This document shows positions 1,593 to 12,552 of a stretch of 35,964 nt of DNA, piece after piece. A program made the translations under genes and the position numbers. Source of the stretch: a virus; IMG/VR virus record IMGVR_UViG_3300026521_000100, positions 1 to 35,964 of that record; one strand, given 5' to 3'. The notes beneath the pieces were generated by a model, which was given only the letters and a program-made list of their open reading frames with translations, was not told the origin of the DNA and searched no databases. Numbering within the stretch: the stretch's first letter is position 1; the number at the start of each line of letters is the position of its first letter.

Positions 1593-2402
1593 TCTAATTC
1601 CTTTATCGTATCTTGTATAACTTCTATACTTATAGCATTTTTTAATGTTTTTTGTTTATCCCAACTATTTCCTATATCTAATTCTGCTTCTAGTTTTACT
1701 GGTGCATCTATTAACTGTGGTTCATCCATAATACACATAGTATTAATTAAATTTTCATTAACCCATTTAACTATTTCTGGATCATTTTTAACTAATAAAT
1801 ATATAGCATCATGAATTTGATTCATTAAAAAGATGTCATATTTATATGGTGATCTTTCTAAGATATCTTGAAATCTTGCTCCTGCTACAGTAGTTAATAT
1901 TCCATAACTCTGAGTAATAGCATTATTAGCAGATCTAAATTCTGCTTTTACAGCAGATGGAGTCATAGATGAATTAATAAAACTCCTTTGAATTAATGGT
2001 GTTTTAACTCTATGTCCCCAACATCCAGTTACATATCCATCTTTTTGCATTTGTTTTTTATTTGCTTCATTCCATTCCACTAAAACTTTATAAGTTTTTT
2101 TATATCCTTCAACTATTTTTTTAGCTTTTTCTAAGGGAATACCTTGCTTCTTAGCCATTCCTGGAGCTTCTTGTCCATAATTCATACCAAAAGTGTATGA
2201 TTTACTATCTTGTCTTAAATCACTTGCTAATTTCTTTACTGAATTTATACTTTCTGGATCATTCATATCTATAAAAATATTACGTTCTTCTAATTCTTCT
2301 TTAAAATATCCAGCAGCATTTAGGCTATGCCCGTCAATACCTTTAGTAAATACACCCATTTTCATCGGATCTTTACTTAAATTAGCAACTATCCTATCTT
2401 CG
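1589..2402 (-). CDS. DNA polymerase (family A), 3' exon
   Basis: This exon encodes the palm/fingers remainder of the phage replicative DNA polymerase. Joined to exon 1 (3269-4860), it gives an 801-residue protein. The first exon-2 codons complete motif A (DFSAL + EDRIVANLSKDP). Fingers motif B (RQDSKSYTFGMNYG, about residues 594-607, with the conserved R, K and YG) and palm motif C (QIHDAIYLL, His728-Asp729) are intact. The reading frame is open upstream of the first in-frame ATG as far as 2402, and the codons from 2402 read E-D-R-I-V-A-N-L exactly where polymerase I proteins continue. The exon on its own lacks a ribosome site, so it is probably translated only from spliced RNA. The 3' end overlaps the next gene by four bases. 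Confidence 0.88.
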
Positions 2403-3268
2403 CAATCAGTTACGACAGACGCTACTCTGTCTCTTCAGTTTCCTGAAGTGTCGGACTATATCTTTATCTTCAGCTTTATCTGTTAAGATAGGTACCGTTT
2501 CGAGAAGTCAATAACTTACTTCCCTACTCTCCGTATGGAGATAGTCTCTGCACCTTACTTAAATTCCCAAAAATAACCTCCAGCATGTTTGCGTAAACCT
2601 CTTAAAACTTTACTTATATTCTGATGAGCAATTCCAGTAATTCTATTAGCTTCTCTTGCTGATTCAAATTCTGCAATAACATTTCCAGTATTTAAATCTA
2701 TTTGCTTTATAGCTTTTTTACTTGCTTCACCTGGTTTACTTAATCCTAATTTAATAGCATGTCTTGTATTCTCTCCTGGAGTTACCCATTCAAGATTACT
2801 TAAATCATTATTTTCTTTATTACCGTCAATATGATTTACATGTTTATATTTTTTAGGATCTGAATTAGGAATAAATGATTCCATTAAAAGTCTATGAATA
2901 AATTTATTAGTTCTTTTTTTAGTTATTGGATGAACCAAAGTAACTAAATAATAACCAATATGTTTATCTAAAACCCATTTTAATTTAGTCCATTTACTCC
3001 ATATTTTTCCTGTTTTTGGTTTATACTTAGTATATACATTACCTTTATCATCTATTTTATATATACCATCATAACCATCAATTAATTTTTCTGCCATTAT
3101 CTATCCTTTGCATTAGTGTAATCAATTATGATTGTACACTAAAAGAAGATAGAAGTCAATAAAGAATTTAAGTCTTGGCTCAGGATTAGCATATCTTACA
3201 ACTTAGCTTTCCCTGAATTAGATACCATTATTACCTAAATATTTCTATTTAGGACCCCCGATATGTTA
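2403..3268 (-). other. Group I self-splicing intron in the DNA polymerase gene
   Basis: Intron of 866 nt interrupting polymerase motif A. The predicted 5' exon ends GCCCU at 3269 and pairs with GGGGU just inside the intron, giving a P1 helix with the required U-G wobble at the splice site and a nine-base loop. The intron ends in G at 2403. Splicing there restores GCC-CTC-GAA-GAT (A-L-E-D), the polymerase motif A sequence. Near the 3' end, on the minus strand, GTGCAGAGACTA (2542-2553) and AAGATATAGTCC (2453-2464) match the paired core elements (P7 region) of T4/SPO1-type group I introns. The homing endonuclease gene lies inside. Splice sites are deduced, not tested, but the rules (U before, G last) and frame all agree. 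Confidence 0.88.
2555..3097 (-). CDS. Intron-encoded HNH homing endonuclease
   Basis: 180-residue protein with a NUMOD4-like N-terminus (GYDGIYKIDDKGNVY), a central HNH core (VNHIDGNKENNDLSNLEWVT, about residues 88-107) and a C-terminal NUMOD1/IENR1 DNA-binding module (IKQIDLNTGNVIAEFESARE, then ISKVLRGLRKHAGGYFW). This is the layout of I-HmuI-type enzymes, which nick intron-less polymerase alleles to spread their group I intron. Its ribosome site (AAAGGATAATG) lies within the intron. The stop codon sits next to the intron's conserved 3' core, so translation and RNA folding may compete. Family assignment is confident; cleavage specificity is unknown. Confidence 0.92.
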   Translation of the reverse strand: MAEKLIDGYDGIYKIDDKGNVYTKYKPKTGKIWSKWTKLKWVLDKHIGYYLVTLVHPITKKRTNKFIHRLLMESFIPNSDPKKYKHVNHIDGNKENNDLSNLEWVTPGENTRHAIKLGLSKPGEASKKAIKQIDLNTGNVIAEFESAREANRITGIAHQNISKVLRGLRKHAGGYFWEFK

Positions 3269-4860
3269 AGGGCTGAAAAATCAGATCCACAGAATAACCA
3301 ACCTTCTGGTGCTTGAAAAATACTTTTAATTAATTTACCATATTTACTGTTACTTGGTAGATTAGCTAAGTTTGGTTCTTTACTTGACAATCTTCCAGAT
3401 ACAGTACCACCTAAAACATGATTTCCTGTTAACCATGCTGTCTCACCACGCCTAAAATAATATGTTTCAAATGGCTCAATAAATCCTGTAAGAATCTTTT
3501 CAATATCTTTAAAATCTTTTACATTAGTTAAAAATTCTTTAATATCTTTATCGTCAGTATGTCTTTCAGCAAGTAATTTTAAAGTATCTCCACTTGTAGA
3601 TGGTTGTTTACTTTTAGTTAATTCTACAACTGGTAATCCTAGTTGATTATAAATAAAATTACTTAACTGTTTAGAGGAGCTAACGTTAAAATCAAAATCT
3701 CCAACATAATTAAGTATTTTAAATAATACATTCTTCCTAGCATCTTCTAATTCCATCCTTGCTCTATCTAATTTTTTTTCACTTAATGGTAGTCCAACTA
3801 TCATTAATTCAATTAAATAATATATACTTTCTATGTTTTTAGTATATATCATCTCTACTTCTTTAATTTTCTTTTTATATTCTTCATATAATAGTGCTGT
3901 AGCTAATGTGTCTATTGCATTATATTCAAGTATCTCTTTTGGAGTTACTGAACTAGAATCAATAGCTTTAGCAATGTCTTTTACATCAATAGCATAATTC
4001 CCAGTCCATTTTAATGCATTAAATTTTAACCCTAATTCATTACCTTGAGTATTATTAGTTACATTATAAACCATAATCATAGTATCATCTATAGTTATAT
4101 TTTCTTTAAGCCAGATAATACCATCTCTCATACCATATAAATCTCTATGATCATACATAAATAAATTAGTAATTAAAATCTTTAAATCAAATAATGCATT
4201 ATGAAAAATTATATGTTTACCTTTTAGAAATTCTTTTAATTGAATTTTCATCCACGGCTCATATAAGAATGTAATAGTATTTTTATTTTCAACTTCTGTT
4301 ATAGAAATACTATATATTTTAGCATTTTCTGCTCTAACACCTAAAGTTTCTAAGTCTATAACAATATTTTTAGATTTTATATCATTTAATAATTTTGTAA
4401 ATTCATATTCATTATTTATTTTTTCCTTTATATTTACTTTTTTTTGGTCTATAAATTCCCATATTCTTACTGGATCTTGTTTATTAAAATATCTATTTAT
4501 ATTATTTAATGATAAATCATAAAGATATTTTTCTTTTTCAAGATATAATCTATCTAATTTATGTCCTTGAATAACAGTTACACCATCATATTCAAATCTT
4601 TCAGTTTGATAATTTCCTGCTTTTTTAACTTTACTCATAAATTTAAATAATTCAGTTCCTATTACAATTATAAGATTATACCTTTCTTTAATATAATACC
4701 AATATTGTTTCATAAAAGCATTAAACTCTTTCTTTGATAAAGTTTTTCCTTTAAATTCTAATTGAATACCATCTACATTATAAGTATTTTCTAAATTATC
4801 AATACTCTCTGTAGATAATACTAAATATTTAGAATTTAATTCTATTGCTTTTCTTATCAT
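3269..4860 (-). CDS. DNA polymerase (family A), 5' exon with 3'-5' exonuclease
   Basis: First 530 codons of the replicative polymerase. The N-terminal ~130 residues are not assignable; the segment IIVIGTELFKFM followed by GVTVIQGHKLDRLY is only loosely reminiscent of nucleotide-glycosylase-like folds. The 3'-5' proofreading exonuclease follows, with all acidic residues present: Exo I VIDLET (D169, E171), Exo II HNALFD (D225) and Exo III YNAIDT (D317). The thumb/palm start leads to GRLSSKEPNLANLPS and motif A Asp527 in GSDFSAL. Without splicing, translation would run about 10 codons into the intron and stop at 3235, giving an inactive 541-residue product. The start codon lies one base after the upstream gene's stop. 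Confidence 0.9.
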
Positions 4861-5647: not shown

Positions 5648-6459
5648 TATAACTCCTTTATTTTATTACTACATTCAATTAATTTTAATAAACCTTCTTT
5701 CGATCCAACTGCAAAGAATTTAGCATTATGCACAAACTCTACTTCATTATTTTTACATTCTGGTTCAAGAGTATAGGCACTTTCAAATGAATCTAAATGT
5801 TTAGGAACCACTTGTACTTTCCATATATTCTGGTTTTTATCAAACCACATAAAATAACCTATTTTAGACCCAACTAATACACTTTGCCATTCTGGTATAA
5901 ATTGAGAACTAATAATAATATTATCTTTTATTTCACAACACTCTAATTGATATTTAGCTTTACTTTTTAATTCATCTTTACCCTTTAACTTAATAATATA
6001 TTTACTAATAGTATCTGTAGCATATAAAAATGAATTATATTGTTCTACAGAATAAATATTACTTTCATTTAAATGTTTAATTAGATCGATAATACTAAAT
6101 TGATCTGCTTTTAATTGACCTATATCATTTAAATCTACTTGTTCAATAAACTTACTAATACTTGGATAAGCTTCATCAATACATATTTTATCAAATTTAG
6201 CTGCTATATAATTCCAAATTAATCCAGCACTTGCTATTTGTTGTTCTTCTGGATCTATATGATGATGATCAAACCATTTTTCAGTATCATATTTCTGACC
6301 TATATCAATAATAAAATCATAATCTTGAGGATTTTCAATAACTTCATTATGACTTACCCTATCTATTTCTAATTCTGGATCAATAAATACTTTAATTAAT
6401 GCTATTGCTGTTACCTCATCTGCATGAAATATTCCATTATGTGTTAATATTCTTTTCAT
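5647..6459 (-). CDS. MYG1/UPF0160-family metal-dependent hydrolase
   Basis: 270-residue protein with the hallmark motifs of the UPF0160/MYG1 family of DHH-type phosphoesterases: THNGIFHADEVTA at residues 6-18 (H7, H12, D14), a metal-binding Asp in DFIIDIG (D52) and WFDHHHID (D64-H67). The C-terminal half has family-like segments (EWQSVLVGSK, FVHNAKFFAVGSKEGLL). MYG1 proteins act as 3'-5' RNA exonucleases or are uncharacterised hydrolases. The bacterial role is not settled, and a phage copy could process RNA or recycle nucleotides. It has its own leader (6460-6689) with a promoter-like element and a good ribosome site (AAAGGAATAAA). Slightly shorter than typical ~300-residue members. Confidence 0.85.
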   Translation of the reverse strand: MKRILTHNGIFHADEVTAIALIKVFIDPELEIDRVSHNEVIENPQDYDFIIDIGQKYDTEKWFDHHHIDPEEQQIASAGLIWNYIAAKFDKICIDEAYPSISKFIEQVDLNDIGQLKADQFSIIDLIKHLNESNIYSVEQYNSFLYATDTISKYIIKLKGKDELKSKAKYQLECCEIKDNIIISSQFIPEWQSVLVGSKIGYFMWFDKNQNIWKVQVVPKHLDSFESAYTLEPECKNNEVEFVHNAKFFAVGSKEGLLKLIECSNKIKEL

Positions 6460-6552: not shown

Positions 6553-6689
6553 TTACCTAATACTTTAATTTTAAGCAACAAATAAAAGCTTAAGTATATT
6601 TACCTATATTTTTAATATTTATTACTCTATGAGCCTTATTTAATCAATAAAACTCATAAAACAAACTGAACGAGCTTGCGAGTGAAGAA

Positions 6690-6745
6690 AAAAATAAAAA
6701 AAAAATAAAAAAAGAACCAAAGAAATTAAATATTTATTTCTCTGG
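6690..6745 (-). terminator. Rho-independent terminator after the winged-helix gene
   Basis: On the minus strand CCAGAGAAAT (6736-6745) pairs with ATTTCTTTGG (6717-6726), ten base pairs with one G-U, and is followed by a long T/A-rich run rich in T (6690-6716). The stop codon of the winged-helix gene lies in the hairpin loop region, so the gene ends inside its terminator. Confidence 0.7.
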
Positions 6746-7145
6746 ATCCAACAAAATAATCCCATTGAATTTGATCTTGTATTTGTTCACTAAAAGTAGC
6801 TTTTCTAAGAACTGCATATGGATTAACATATATTCTAAATCTATCTTTAGAATATATAATATTCTCTTTTAACCATTGTTTTTTAATTCTTGATATTTGC
6901 ATATAACTTATGCTTATATCTTTAAATACATCATTCCACACTATCTCTATTGAACCAGAAGTACTAATAGTATTAATTAAATATTTAATATATTTTACAT
7001 ATTTACTTTCTAATACTTCTGGATATATTTTTATTAATCCTGATTTAACATATCTCTTTCCATTTTCTTTTACATATGCTTGATGAGTTTCTATCTCACC
7101 TGTTTCTGGATTAATAATATTTAATGGTATTGAAAAATCTTTCAT
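6726..7145 (-). CDS. Winged-helix DNA-binding protein (RepL-like)
   Basis: 139-residue protein. The N-terminus (NIINPETGEIETHQAYVKEN) is followed by a helical part and a winged-helix segment at about residues 62-113: IEIVWNDVFKDISISYMQIS, RIKKQWLKENIIYS, then RFRIYVNPYAVLRK. The ending, a beta wing followed by an Asn-Pro motif, is typical of RepL-like plasmid replication initiators and related phage regulators. It is transcribed as a single-gene unit between an operator-like palindrome (7173-7192) and a terminator (6690-6745). It could regulate its own promoter and the similar element at 6540, or bind an origin. Specific family membership is inferred from motif style only. Confidence 0.6.
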   Translation of the reverse strand: MKDFSIPLNIINPETGEIETHQAYVKENGKRYVKSGLIKIYPEVLESKYVKYIKYLINTISTSGSIEIVWNDVFKDISISYMQISRIKKQWLKENIIYSKDRFRIYVNPYAVLRKATFSEQIQDQIQWDYFVGSREINI

Positions 7146-7275: not shown

Positions 7276-8250
7276 TTAAGAAAGCATATATTCACTTTCT
7301 TTAATTGCTTTAATCATTACTTCTTTCTTTTCTGGAGTATAATTAATTTTAACTCCATATAAATCATTCATAATCTTAGGGAATAGTTCATCTTTTATCA
7401 TTACTGTAAATGCTTCTTTATAAACATCTATTAAATCATTAGCTTTAGATACTGGCACTTGAAATGAGTCATGTATAGTATGTACTGTTATTCCTTTTTT
7501 ATGTAATTTCTTAACTACATACCTAAGTATCCATGCATCTAAACTATGAACTATATTCGGAACTATTCCTCTCCATTGATTTTTATCTTCCTGATTCACT
7601 TTATAAGTAAATGGTACTTCTACATCTTTAAATTTAAGGTTCTCAGTAACACTTACTTCTACAGGAATAGATACTTTTAAATCAGGTAATTGCCATCCAT
7701 ATACTTTAGTTGGTTTATAAAATTTATTTACAGTGTCTAATACTTTCTGAGGTCCTTTAAATTCCTCTTGCATAAACTCAAAGAACATTTCAGCCATTTC
7801 TTCTCCAAAGTAATCTTCTATATTTTTTCTTGAGTTATAAAAGTATGTCATCAATGGTTTTTTAATATGTTCTCTTTCGATGTTTAATCCAAACATCTTA
7901 CTAAAATCTTTAGCAACTTCAGTATAAATGTCCATTCTTTTATCACTACCGATATTTACTCTTTTACCTGCTTCAATATCTAAACTAATAGCAGATAATA
8001 TTTGTAACCCTGATGCTGTAGCATCAAGATATATATTAGGCTCTTGAGTAGCTGAACCATCTAATAGTTCTACTACTTCATTAAGTCTTTTAATTAATAA
8101 ATAGTCTTGTTTTTCTGGCTTAAATGAACTATTAAGATAAGAATTTATAATTTCCTTACCTTTAATAATTCTATCATTCCATGATAACTTATCATATCCT
8201 GCTTCATTTGCTATACTTATCATTATCCATTCATATTTGTTAAATTTCAT
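7276..8250 (-). CDS. T7-like RNA polymerase, catalytic subunit (N4 RNAP2-like)
   Basis: C-terminal, catalytic part of a single-subunit-type RNA polymerase encoded as a separate gene. Motif A is LDATASGLQILSA (catalytic D76). Motif B is KKPLMTYFYNS (K130 or K131, M134 and Y138, spaced as T7 K631, M635 and Y639). Motif C is TIHDSFQV (D261), preceded by PNIVHSLDA. The start region (WIMISIANEAGYDKLSWNDR) matches the T7 segment before motif A. All catalytic residues are present, so the heterodimer with the upstream gene should be active. In N4 the corresponding RNAPII transcribes middle genes and needs a single-stranded-DNA-binding partner. Shorter than N4 p7 (324 against about 404 residues). Confidence 0.92.
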   Translation of the reverse strand: MKFNKYEWIMISIANEAGYDKLSWNDRIIKGKEIINSYLNSSFKPEKQDYLLIKRLNEVVELLDGSATQEPNIYLDATASGLQILSAISLDIEAGKRVNIGSDKRMDIYTEVAKDFSKMFGLNIEREHIKKPLMTYFYNSRKNIEDYFGEEMAEMFFEFMQEEFKGPQKVLDTVNKFYKPTKVYGWQLPDLKVSIPVEVSVTENLKFKDVEVPFTYKVNQEDKNQWRGIVPNIVHSLDAWILRYVVKKLHKKGITVHTIHDSFQVPVSKANDLIDVYKEAFTVMIKDELFPKIMNDLYGVKINYTPEKKEVMIKAIKESEYMLS

Positions 8251-8272
8251 ATTTATATCCTTTATATCTAAT

Positions 8273-9019
8273 TTATTTTAATAACTCTTTTAAGTTATTT
8301 GTATCTTCTTGGTTCCATTGAGTATTATTTATCATTGTTAATGATGCTTTTTTATACTTAGTCCCTTGAGGGTTTATATGATAACCTCTACTATATATTC
8401 TACCTCTTGTATCATAGAAATGTCTAAAGTTAAATTTTTTATTTTTCCATTTCTGACACATTTGCTTAGCTCTTGATAATTCTAAATGTTTATGTTCAGA
8501 TTTATCATAACTATTATCTTCATATCTTAATATATTATCATCAAGCTTAAACTTAACACTATTCAATATATCAAGAGAATGTAAATCTAAACTTAATAAT
8601 TTACCATTCCAAAATCTTTTATGAATTAAATCTTTTCTAGTATATTCTAAATCTGTAGTTACTTCTGGTTCAATCTTTTTTTCTTCGAGTTCATTTTCAA
8701 TATAAACTTGAGGTAATACAACTACAGATGGTATACCTTCATCAGTATAGCCTATTCTAAAACCTACTAGTTTCTTAGGCAATATTTCTAAGAACCTTAT
8801 ACCTTGATAAGCTACCTCTAAGTCATTAGGTAATTCCATATCAAAGTCTCTAACTAATTTTTTACCTATAAGATTAGCAACGTGTTGTAAAGCCCAACTT
8901 TCCTGAGTAAATAATAACTCAGAAAAATATTTATCAAGTTGTTTTTTATTTTCAAAATCAAACCCTACTATAGATAATCTATATCTAAGTAAGGCAAATG
9001 TAGAGTCTTTCATTGCCAT
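8273..9019 (-). CDS. T7-like RNA polymerase, N-terminal subunit (N4 RNAP1-like)
   Basis: N-terminal partner of the split RNA polymerase, 248 residues (N4 p4 is about 269). The diagnostic segment FRHFYDTRGRIYSRGYHINP with QG following (residues 199-219) matches T7 RNAP FPYNMDWRGRVYAVSMFNPQG. Upstream, SRAKQMCQKWKNKK is the helix that precedes it in T7-like enzymes. The protein ends soon after this motif, and the next gene begins 22 bases later with the following block of the polymerase. The gap is too short for an intron and each gene has its own ribosome site, so this is a true two-gene polymerase as in N4-like phages. Confidence 0.9.
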   Translation of the reverse strand: MAMKDSTFALLRYRLSIVGFDFENKKQLDKYFSELLFTQESWALQHVANLIGKKLVRDFDMELPNDLEVAYQGIRFLEILPKKLVGFRIGYTDEGIPSVVVLPQVYIENELEEKKIEPEVTTDLEYTRKDLIHKRFWNGKLLSLDLHSLDILNSVKFKLDDNILRYEDNSYDKSEHKHLELSRAKQMCQKWKNKKFNFRHFYDTRGRIYSRGYHINPQGTKYKKASLTMINNTQWNQEDTNNLKELLK

Positions 9020-9029
9020 AATTAATCCT

Positions 9030-9353
9030 TTATATTAAATCTAATGTCAAAACTTCATTAATTGTAGGTGCTTTATTATATTTCCACCATTCACTGCTAT
9101 TATACTCTTCTCTATTTAACCAACTATTGTCATTAAATAATATAATTCCTTCAATTTCTTGAGTCCCATAAGTATTATCATATAGAATATCTAAATTTTT
9201 AAATATTTTATTATTTACTTTATCTGTTTTTAATAGTATTTCATATTCTTCTGTTTCTAAATTAAATTTATAAATATTAATAGCTATTATATCTTCAATA
9301 GTTTTATCTACATTACTAATTTGTGCTATTGTTTCTTTTAATAAATTTATCAT
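9030..9353 (-). CDS. Hypothetical protein upstream of the RNA polymerase, 107 aa
   Basis: Acidic 107-residue protein of unknown function. The C-terminal half carries an aromatic-rich block (EGIILFNDNSWLNREEYNSS, then EWWKYNKAP) of a type common in small phage proteins with an 'SWL-R-EYDGSEWW' pattern. It is the first gene of the RNAP operon, 10 bases before RNAP1, and follows two CGGAG elements and the terminator of the large non-coding RNA. It is probably an early protein. No membrane or DNA-binding motif is seen. Confidence 0.72.
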   Translation of the reverse strand: MINLLKETIAQISNVDKTIEDIIAINIYKFNLETEEYEILLKTDKVNNKIFKNLDILYDNTYGTQEIEGIILFNDNSWLNREEYNSSEWWKYNKAPTINEVLTLDLI

Positions 9354-9401: not shown

Positions 9402-9432
9402 ACACCATACGGAGAAAAGAACCAAACGGAGT
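9402..9432 (-). promoter_or_regulatory. Two tandem ACC-N3-CGGAG elements before the RNAP operon
   Basis: The plus (template) strand holds ACACCATACGGAG (9402-9414) and AACCAAACGGAGT (9420-9432). They share the ACC-N3-CGGAG core with the hairpin elements at 10475-10861 but have only 1-2 base pairs around the GGA loop, so they are weaker or degenerate versions. Their position directly upstream of the RNAP operon suits an early promoter. Confidence 0.35.
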
Positions 9433-9469: not shown

Positions 9470-9504
9470 AAAATAAAAAAAATAATTTTACACCTAACAA
9501 GGTG
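9470..9504 (-). terminator. Terminator of the large non-coding RNA
   Basis: Minus-strand CACCT-TGTT-AGGTG hairpin (9491-9504) followed by TAAAATTATTTTTTTTATTTTT. The T run begins seven bases after the stem, so it is a slightly relaxed but plausible Rho-independent terminator. It marks the 3' end of the structured RNA and separates it from the RNAP operon. Confidence 0.6.
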
Positions 9505-9541
9505 GGTGTTTCGCGACTTTTCCTTGTCGGGAGACTATTAA
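9503..9541 (-). repeat. 3' copy of the RNA-terminal hairpin module
   Basis: Minus strand TTAATAGTCTCCCGAC-AAGGAAAA-GTCG, then CGAAACACCC. It aligns with the copy at 10158-10193, with the stem changed from CGTC/GACG to CGAC/GTCG while the loop AAGGAAAA is unchanged. Confidence 0.75.
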
Positions 9542-10157
9542 GTTTTTACTCCGATTGCTCACAAAATATAATCTTACGATTATATTGGCGACCATCTATC
9601 CTATGGGTCTGCAAGTTAAAGCGTCTTATAGGCTACTTGCTCCCTCGTATAGGTTTACTATTCCTATACGACCTATAGACACTGCTGTTTCGACCCTTTC
9701 TGGCGTAGCCTTATTAGGTGCTACGCTTCTCGCATTAATATATCACAGCTAATATACTAAGCGATACCCGTTAGCCAAACGAGTCTTTTTCACACGGACC
9801 GGACATGCTATTCCTCCGGGTTATGCCGTTTGGTTCATTCGTCTTATACAGTTACCTATATAAGACTCACGAGACTCCTTAGCATCTTTCGACCTAAGGA
9901 CTCATCTCAGCGAACCAAAGTTCTTACCATATCCTTTCGGACTTAGGCTTTGTCTTTCGACTGGAAGCGACTTTCTCAAACTTTCAGGCTCCCATTTCAG
10001 TAACTTTTCACCTTAATGGCTTATAGTTACCTACACCGTGACTGCTCACCATATCCCTTTTAGGACTTAGGCTTCTTTGTGTTTTTACGGATATCTCCCA
10101 CGGTCGAGTATATCCAACTAATATCTTTATTTTACTTTGCAATATTAGACTACAAAG

Positions 10158-10193
10158 GGTTTTAACGTCTTTTCCTTGACGTGAGATTATTAA
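10158..10193 (-). repeat. 5' copy of the RNA-terminal hairpin module
   Basis: Minus strand TTAATAATCTCACGTC-AAGGAAAA-GACG, then TTAAAACCC. It begins inside the stop codon of the 77-aa gene, implying that the RNA is either cut from a joint transcript or starts at that gene's end. Confidence 0.75.
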
Positions 10194-10423
10194 TAAGTAA
10201 CCTCTTTATCTTCAGATTGAGTTTCCGAAGAAGATTTACCAATCAGTTCTAATAATTTAGAATTAGTTGGTTTATCAGTTACAACCTCTATAGATGCGCC
10301 TGCACCTATAGATTTCTCAAGAAGCATTAAAGCCTCTTGAGAATTGATATCAAGTGGAGTATTAAAATACCCTACTAACTCTCTATCGAGAGTTATTCTA
10401 AATTTATTAAATTGTTTAGCCAT
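10190..10423 (-). CDS. Hypothetical protein, 77 aa
   Basis: Small protein with an N-terminal basic strand (MAKQFNKFRITLDRELVGYF), a middle helix (SQEALMLLEKSIGAGAS), a strand (IEVVTDKP) and an acidic Ser/Glu-rich tail. Not recognised. A good ribosome site (AAAGGAGAAATT) precedes the ATG. It lies directly upstream of the large structured RNA, with its stop codon inside the RNA's first repeat module, so the two share a transcript. A role in binding that RNA is an attractive but untested idea. Confidence 0.75.
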   Translation of the reverse strand: MAKQFNKFRITLDRELVGYFNTPLDINSQEALMLLEKSIGAGASIEVVTDKPTNSKLLELIGKSSSETQSEDKEVTY

Positions 10424-10474
10424 AATTTCTCCTTTATTTTAATTTATTTGGGTTATGGCAAACCCTCTATAAAA

Positions 10475-10486
10475 CCTAACGGAGTT
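10475..10486 (-). promoter_or_regulatory. AACC-N3-CGGAG element, candidate early promoter
   Basis: Plus (template) strand AACCTAACGGAGTT: the AAC-GGA-GTT core makes a 3-bp stem with a GGA triloop. It lies about 60 bases upstream of the 77-aa gene and continues the series at 10529, 10614 and 10845. A weaker hairpin than the others. Confidence 0.4.
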
Positions 10487-10525: not shown

Positions 10526-10528
10526 GAA

Positions 10529-10543
10529 CCAATCGGAGATTGG
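10529..10543 (-). promoter_or_regulatory. C-GGA-G triloop hairpin, candidate virion-RNAP promoter
   Basis: Plus strand CCAATC-GGA-GATTGG: a perfect 6-bp stem with a GGA triloop closed by C-G, the same loop and closing pair as the N4 early promoter P2 hairpin (GAAGC-GGA-GCTTC on the template strand). As in N4, the hairpin is on the template strand of the genes it precedes (leftward). Confidence 0.55.
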
Positions 10544-10613
10544 AGAGAAAAGGAGAAGAAAGAAGAATTAAGAAGAAATTAGGAAAATTAAGAAGTATTC
10601 TATTATATAACCT

Positions 10614-10626
10614 ATATCGGAGATAT
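10614..10626 (-). promoter_or_regulatory. C-GGA-G triloop hairpin, candidate virion-RNAP promoter
   Basis: Plus strand ATATC-GGA-GATAT, 5 bp, preceded by AACCT. It lies between the terminator of the 43-aa gene (10660-10712) and the 77-aa gene, the expected place for a fresh leftward promoter. Confidence 0.55.
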
Positions 10627-10659: not shown

Positions 10660-10712
10660 TGAAAAATAAAAAGACTTTAGAAAGGGAAGTATTCACTCCC
10701 CTCCCCAAAGTC
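10660..10712 (-). terminator. Rho-independent terminator overlapping the end of the 43-aa gene
   Basis: Minus strand: GACTTT (10707-10712) pairs with AAAGTC (10673-10678), enclosing a GC-rich stem (AGGGGAGT with ACTTCCCT, one G-U, loop GAAT). A run CTTTTTATTTTT follows. The last codons and stop of the 43-aa gene lie in the stem, so coding and termination are superimposed. Confidence 0.75.
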
Positions 10713-10808: not shown

Positions 10809-10844
10809 TTGTTTCTCCTTTAAGTTTAATTTATGCAATATAAC

Positions 10845-10861
10845 CATTAACGGAGTTAATG
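10845..10861 (-). promoter_or_regulatory. C-GGA-G triloop hairpin, candidate virion-RNAP promoter
   Basis: Plus strand CATTAAC-GGA-GTTAATG: a perfect 7-bp stem with a GGA triloop, the strongest of the series. It is preceded by AAC and lies 37 bases upstream of the start of the 43-aa gene on the opposite (leftward) strand, with the hairpin on the template strand as in N4. Confidence 0.6.
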
Positions 10862-12211: not shown

Positions 12212-12287
12212 TTACCCATAGTTCAGTTGGTAGAACATCTGGCTGTTAACCAGAATGTCCCAGGTTCGAGTCCTGGTGGGTAAGCCA
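12212..12287 (+). tRNA. tRNA-Asn (GTT)
   Basis: Full cloverleaf with encoded CCA: acceptor TTACCCA/TGGGTAA, D-arm around AGTTCAGTTGGTAGAAC, anticodon stem CTGG with loop CTGTTAA (anticodon GTT), T-arm CCAGG-TTCGAGT-CCTGG, discriminator G. First of four clustered tRNAs. It reads AAY, the codons most heavily used in the late structural genes. Confidence 0.95.
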
Positions 12288-12290
12288 TTT

Positions 12291-12377
12291 GGAGTGATGT
12301 GCTGAATTGGTAAGGCAGCAGACTGTAAATCTGTGGATATAAGGATCATGATAGTTCGAATCTATCTCACTCCACCA
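12291..12377 (+). tRNA. tRNA-Tyr (GTA)
   Basis: Class II tRNA of 87 nt with a long variable arm and encoded CCA: acceptor GGAGTGA/TCACTCC, anticodon loop CTGTAAA (GTA), T-arm ATAG-TTCGAAT-CTAT, discriminator A. Three bases separate it from tRNA-Asn, so both come from one precursor. Confidence 0.95.
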
Positions 12378-12383
12378 TTACAT

Positions 12384-12459
12384 TACAGGGTAGAGCAGAA
12401 GGTAGCTTACTTGGTTCATGCCCAAGAGGTCGCTGGTTCGAGTCCAGCCTCTGTAACCA
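12384..12459 (+). tRNA. tRNA-Met (CAT), initiator-like
   Basis: 76 nt with encoded CCA: acceptor TACAGGG/CTCTGTA (one G-U), anticodon stem CTTGG/CCAAG, loop TTCATGC (CAT), T-arm GCTGG-TTCGAGT-CCAGC. The body (GAGCAG-GGTAGCT, AGGTCG-GGTTC and A73-CCA) follows bacterial initiator tRNA. Position 1 is U facing A72 (initiators normally carry the C1/A72 mismatch) and the anticodon stem has two rather than three G-C pairs. Base 37 is G, which is unusual for CAT anticodons. It could be an initiator, an elongator Met or a lysidine-modified Ile tRNA; the initiator reading fits best. Confidence 0.85.
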
Positions 12460-12478
12460 TTTTATATTTTAATTATAA

Positions 12479-12552
12479 TCTGGAGTCGTCTAATGGTAGG
12501 ACAACTGGTTTTGAACCAGTTAATCGAGGTTCGATCCCTTGCTCTAGAACCA
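12479..12552 (+). tRNA. tRNA-Gln (TTG)
   Basis: 74 nt with encoded CCA: acceptor TCTGGAG/CTCTAGA (one G-U), anticodon stem ACTGG/CCAGT with loop TTTTGAA (anticodon TTG), T-arm CGAGG-TTCGATC-CCTTG. It reads CAA, which is abundant in the portal and other late genes. Confidence 0.95.

Follow-up and report, generated by a model that had tools for sequence, protein, structure and literature searches.

A block of about 700 nt in the genome of an N4-like podovirus very likely specifies a real structured RNA under selection. The phage is represented by an AT-rich IMG/VR record of 36 kb with a genome GC of about 25%, and the window (the whole stretch of DNA that was analysed) comprises 35,964 nt. The block lies at positions 9491–10193 on the minus strand, with its 5′ end near 10193 and its 3′ end near 9490. 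It was delimited by the lack of open reading frames, by GC content, by folding and by tetraloop receptors, and the coordinates proposed in an initial annotation proved right to within a few bases. We favor, with a rough probability of 0.55, its reading as an early-transcribed, compact RNA that acts in trans; a scaffold formed by self-association, as in GOLLD and ROOL, is our leading but tentative proposal for its role. None of the RNA families and sequences searched matched it, and it looks like a large structured phage RNA that is so far one of a kind.

The phage was grouped with the N4-like podoviruses (Schitoviridae) because its terminase is about 50% identical to those of this family and because genes for an N4-like two-subunit RNA polymerase, a portal and a DNA polymerase were identified in the window. 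The polymerases occupy the leftward half of the genome, and the terminase and structural genes the rightward half. The RNA polymerase genes are located at 7276–9019 on the minus strand (RNAP1, 8273–9019; RNAP2, 7276–8250). The initial annotation had placed the block between a 77-aa gene and this polymerase operon; the first neighbor is correct, but a 107-aa gene (9030–9353, minus strand), which covers most of the PHROG profile phrog_3972, separates the block from the polymerase genes. Four tRNA genes are found at 12212–12552 on the plus strand. The DNA polymerase gene is interrupted by an HNH endonuclease ORF (2365–3235), flanked by two group I intron matches on the minus strand (2432–2640 and 3091–3278). 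A further highly structured stretch (z −7.3) was observed at 6571–6750 on the minus strand, most of it intergenic, with the flanking genes at 6459 and 6726.

Analysis of the composition of the block bore out its description as protein-free and GC-richer. Its GC content is 0.40, versus 0.22–0.29 in the flanking sequence, and no minus-strand ORF of at least 60 aa was found between 9353 and 10190; on the plus strand, the region contains a single 65-aa ORF with a TTG start. The minus-strand fold of the block (731 nt) has a predicted energy of −220.9 kcal/mol (z −7.23 against dinucleotide shuffles), and none of 20 shuffled sequences was as stable. In a scan of 398 minus-strand windows of 180 nt, five of the seven windows from the block were among the eight most stable. 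The complementary strand gave a z value of −6.39, near that of the minus strand, so that folding energy alone cannot assign the strand. It has to be noted that other stretches of the early region, coding RNA included, are unusually structured too, and the high level of structure is therefore partly a regional property. The many perfect stems initially reported are present, yet their number alone is only moderately unusual: eight stems of at least 6 bp add up to 70 bp, against 35.8 ± 13.0 bp in shuffled sequences (maximum 85). The case for a structured RNA thus rests on specific motifs. The predicted structure ensemble of the block is diverse. The best inverted-repeat pair (9416–9429 with 9826–9839) was considered as a feature of the block and judged to be probably incidental.

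Two exact copies of the 11-nt GAAA tetraloop receptor (CCUAAG-UCC...GGA-UAUGG) were found in the block, where 0.13 would be expected, and the rest of the window contains no further copy. Receptor 1 is located at 10049–10071 and receptor 2 at 9927–9947, the latter with flanking helices predicted at pairing probabilities of 0.76–0.96. Since the receptor motif is directional, the RNA was assigned to the minus strand. Candidate ligands are present on the same strand: a GAAA tetraloop hairpin at 9952–9961 (p 0.95) and a GAAA tetraloop at 9884–9893 (p 0.93–1.0) on top of a 10-bp hairpin (9876–9900). In addition, GUAA tetraloops cap an 11-bp hairpin at 9841–9866 (p 1.0) and a 9-bp hairpin at 9565–9586 (p 0.97).

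The duplication of hairpin modules was also corroborated, both by the pair of receptors and by a 33-nt module repeated at the two ends of the block. The 5′ copy (10161–10193, minus strand) forms the hairpin ACGUC-AAGGAAAA-GACGU with a pairing probability of 0.94, and the 3′ copy (9509–9541, minus strand) forms CGAC-AAGGAAAA-GUCG with a probability of 0.88. The copies are identical at 27 of the 33 positions, whereas the highest value in 200 shuffles was 24. Both hairpins carry the same 8-nt loop, CAAGGAAAAG, and one stem pair is switched from U-A to A-U; this pair, within an internal repeat, is the only compensatory change available as evidence of covariation.

At the 3′ end, the terminator predicted by the initial annotation exists as a hairpin of 5 bp (9491–9504, minus strand; −6.0 kcal/mol) followed by a U-rich run, but it is weak (z −1.4), and the terminator scan did not flag it. 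An alternative partner for this end was revealed by the loop–distal helix score: a 7-bp hairpin at 9703–9726 (minus strand) exposes a 10-nt loop (9710–9719) complementary to the 3′ end (9491–9502). The resulting candidate pseudoknot would comprise 10–12 bp and scores 27.5, above the maximum of 24 in 100 shuffles. The two pairings are mutually exclusive, and the terminator-like hairpin would have to compete with the better long-range one. Other candidate pseudoknots were at chance level, such as that between the loop CUAAU of the hairpin at 10157–10135 and a downstream AUUAG. With the receptors and this candidate pseudoknot at the 3′ end, the observation is stronger than first reported.

Directly upstream of the block lies the 77-aa ORF (10190–10423, minus strand). 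A good ribosome-binding site and third codon positions that are AT-rich like those of the neighboring genes (GC3 0.17 vs GC12 0.38) indicate that it is probably translated; its product had no PHROG or Pfam match. The RNA of this region is also strongly structured, with a z value of −7.2 for positions 10190–10480 of the minus strand, and the structure of the ORF exceeds codon constraint (synonymous-shuffle z −4.8). The corresponding values were −3.5 and −3.4 for the starts of RNAP1 and RNAP2, respectively, +0.7 for the 107-aa gene, and −0.6 and +0.3 for late genes. As the structure extends through the 77-aa ORF, the structured unit would measure about 1 kb, from approximately 10480 to 9490. An 18-bp terminator-like hairpin, strong and followed by a T-run, is found upstream of this unit (10673–10712, minus strand).

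The initial annotation had regarded the position of the block as early, and the elements found around the unit agree with it. The pattern AACC-N3-5-CGGAG occurs five times, versus 0.01 expected, always on the strand that would serve as template for leftward transcription. The element nearest the 77-aa ORF (AACC-N3-CGGAG, 10473–10484, plus strand) forms a hairpin of only 3 bp and is a candidate promoter for an N4-type virion RNA polymerase. Further upstream, elements at 10527–10538, 10609–10622 and 10842–10855 (all plus strand) form hairpins of 6, 5 and 7 bp, respectively, with a GGA loop. The fifth (9420–9431, plus strand), with a weak hairpin, is downstream of the RNA and ahead of the 107-aa gene, and a variant element, in which a sixth CGGAG closely follows ACACC, is present at 9410 on the plus strand. 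The N4 virion polymerase recognizes a template-strand hairpin with a three-base loop formed by −10G, −11G and −12A (PMC4496689), and other N4-like phages carry hairpin promoters of 4–5 nt ahead of early genes (PMC3715699). In three of the present elements (at 10535, 10619 and 10852) the GGA loop is closed by a C-G pair, as in the N4 promoter; the −8G of the latter is not conserved. On the basis of these sequence features we consider the elements candidate early promoters, from which the 77-aa ORF and the RNA would be transcribed leftward. With such N4-type hairpins flanking the unit, very early transcription is likely.

This arrangement bears on the main rival explanation, in which the 77-aa message merely includes the structured block as a passive element, either as its 3′ untranslated region or as an intercistronic stretch, that serves message protection, processing or termination before the next unit and has no role in trans. 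In its favor, the block directly follows the stop codon of this ORF, which is also structured as RNA, the candidate promoters are upstream of the ORF, and a weak hairpin with a subsequent U-rich run closes the block. However, a length of 700 nt, two receptors and matching end hairpins far exceed what a stabilizer or a terminator needs, and a close relative manages without the block. We regard this explanation as a serious but rather unlikely one, and consider it probable that the RNA has a function of its own.

The end hairpins suggest another alternative, in which the RNA would be a sponge or decoy for a host protein, for instance a CsrA-type binder of GGA loops, through the two CAAGGAAAAG loops. 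A GGA within a hairpin loop resembles CsrA sites, and the loop has been kept exactly between the end hairpins although a stem pair has changed. Known Csr sponges, on the other hand, carry many more such loops than the two present in the block, which makes this role improbable.

Comparison with known RNA families was carried out with Rfam 15, as had been suggested, for the block and for the whole window. No match in the block was obtained at gathering scores, and none that was relevant at E ≤ 10 with permissive filters, to GOLLD, ROOL, group I or group II introns or other models. The same methods detected the tRNAs of the window and the group I introns of control loci, and the intron of the DNA polymerase gene was recovered with E values of 6.9e-10 to 8e-8. 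Together with the fold z value, the receptors and the candidate pseudoknot, these results uphold the description of the block as a large structured RNA that differs from the known families. The accession RF01998, initially given for GOLLD, is in fact a group II intron model; GOLLD corresponds to RF02032 and ROOL to RF03087. The GOLLD model, including its conserved 3′ region, did not match the block either in the scans with all Rfam models or in a direct search. The ROOL model gave no match at E ≤ 10 in the scans with all models; nor did a direct search, which is weaker evidence alone because the control genomes likewise gave no match.

The block nevertheless shares general traits with both families. 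ROOL is a large, protein-free and heavily paired phage or prophage RNA, often near tRNAs, that assembles into an RNA-only octameric cage. The block is similar in size (ROOL env-120 has 659 nt; PMC12286853). The tRNA genes of this phage lie at a distance of 2 kb from the block, on the opposite strand. GOLLD, whose function is unknown, is a phage RNA of large size and ornate structure that is often found close to tRNA islands. Many of its representatives are longer than 800 nt (PMC12286853), compared with about 700 nt for the likewise ornate block.

Derivation of the block from a group I (or group II) intron or a ribozyme, by divergence or decay, is very unlikely, as no convincing match to any Rfam model was found in the block at E ≤ 10, including the group I catalytic core (RF00028) and the group II models D1–D4, and the block contains no endonuclease ORF and interrupts no gene, with the complete 77-aa ORF on one side and the 107-aa gene on the other. 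This is so despite a resemblance in the receptor. The same 11-nt GAAA motif occurs, with comparable flanks, in phage group I introns, and the context AGCCUAAG...UAUGGU is identical to P5 of many of them, which accounts for a short match by BLAST to Geobacillus virus E3. Furthermore, the DNA polymerase gene of this phage itself is interrupted by a group I intron carrying an HNH gene, and by context most of the non-coding viral stretches that match the receptor resemble group I introns; several were confirmed as such by Rfam, with up to 27 nt identical.

Searches for homologues covered phages, plasmids and bacterial genomes. In IMG/VR, an exact-motif scan with the end hairpin gave 55 matches, all judged to be due to chance, and a scan with the receptor and its stem returned 96 stretches with no homologue among them, the non-coding ones being mostly group I intron-like and the remaining ones being coding matches plus one RNase P-like site. 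The extended receptor module gave no match in IMG/VR. The end hairpin had at least 118 matches in GTDB; among the matches listed, none had receptors nearby and one carried a second copy of the loop, inside an open frame. The BLASTN matches in GenBank phages and plasmids were all short and insignificant, the receptor-sized ones included. Since no homologue was found in the collections searched, the class and function of the RNA cannot be shown.

The best plasmid match came from Weissella (L354–L361, for instance L355:1–1040). A structured non-coding RNA of about 0.75–1 kb is conserved in these plasmids, some of which also carry a GH25 lysozyme gene. This RNA has no Rfam match, and a comparison of six sequences showed compensatory changes, in one or more of them, for 26 of the 224 pairs predicted. 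The Weissella RNA and the block share a module composed of a short hairpin, AAAG, the 11-nt receptor and GGURARAAC (84% identity over 44 nt), and no similarity was seen beyond it. A model of this module (R1) scored 31.4 bits on the window, versus at most 22.4 bits for group I controls. As the match was selected as the best from a 7.3-Gb search, with BLAST E values of 0.2–0.7, we do not claim common descent.

Relatives of the phage itself were sought through the neighboring genes. Single-query searches with the tail spike and RNAP1 found no relatives, and the terminase as single query found one distant relative. An alignment-based search with the terminase led to a phage (L157) with 65% identity in this protein, which was also the only one returned by the RNAP2 alignment (56% identity). 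This is the nearest phage found; it has the same GC content and keeps the polymerase genes and the terminase. At the place corresponding to the block it shows only an AT-rich spacer, with no receptor and no GC-rich block, and a 68-aa ORF at a like place has no similarity to the 77-aa protein. These observations indicate that the RNA is an accessory element of recent gain or loss, or else too diverged to be detected.

For the RNA acting in trans that we favor, the following mechanism can be proposed. The virion RNA polymerase would transcribe the block leftward, very early, from the N4-type hairpin promoters just upstream, together with the 77-aa ORF, itself structured as RNA. The two 11-nt receptors would then dock GAAA tetraloops to give a compact fold, and the pseudoknot between the loop and the 3′ end would tether this end. 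The matching end hairpins with their identical 8-nt loops, plus the surplus GNRA loops, may allow intermolecular contacts, and the RNA would work in trans, by analogy with GOLLD and ROOL most likely as a self-associating scaffold. Formation of a homo-oligomer as such is suggested only tentatively. Equally tentative is the broader proposal of a new class of tertiary-folded, probably self-assembling RNA that would be transcribed by an injected polymerase at the onset of infection and be continuous with a coding stretch selected for structure.

Few large structured RNAs are known from bacteria and phages. GOLLD, ROOL and OLE have recently been shown to form RNA-only multimers, with GOLLD and ROOL assembling into RNA cages, and the question of how widespread cages are among large RNAs in nature was left open (PMC12286853). 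As a candidate unrelated to these RNAs, and with two tetraloop receptors of natural origin, the block would provide an independent test case for RNA cage formation; no such RNA was found among the checked relatives in this phage family. GOLLD rises at lysis. The likely timing of the present RNA, with transcription presumably by the virion polymerase in the first minutes of infection, would suggest a role in takeover of the host cell and not in lysis.
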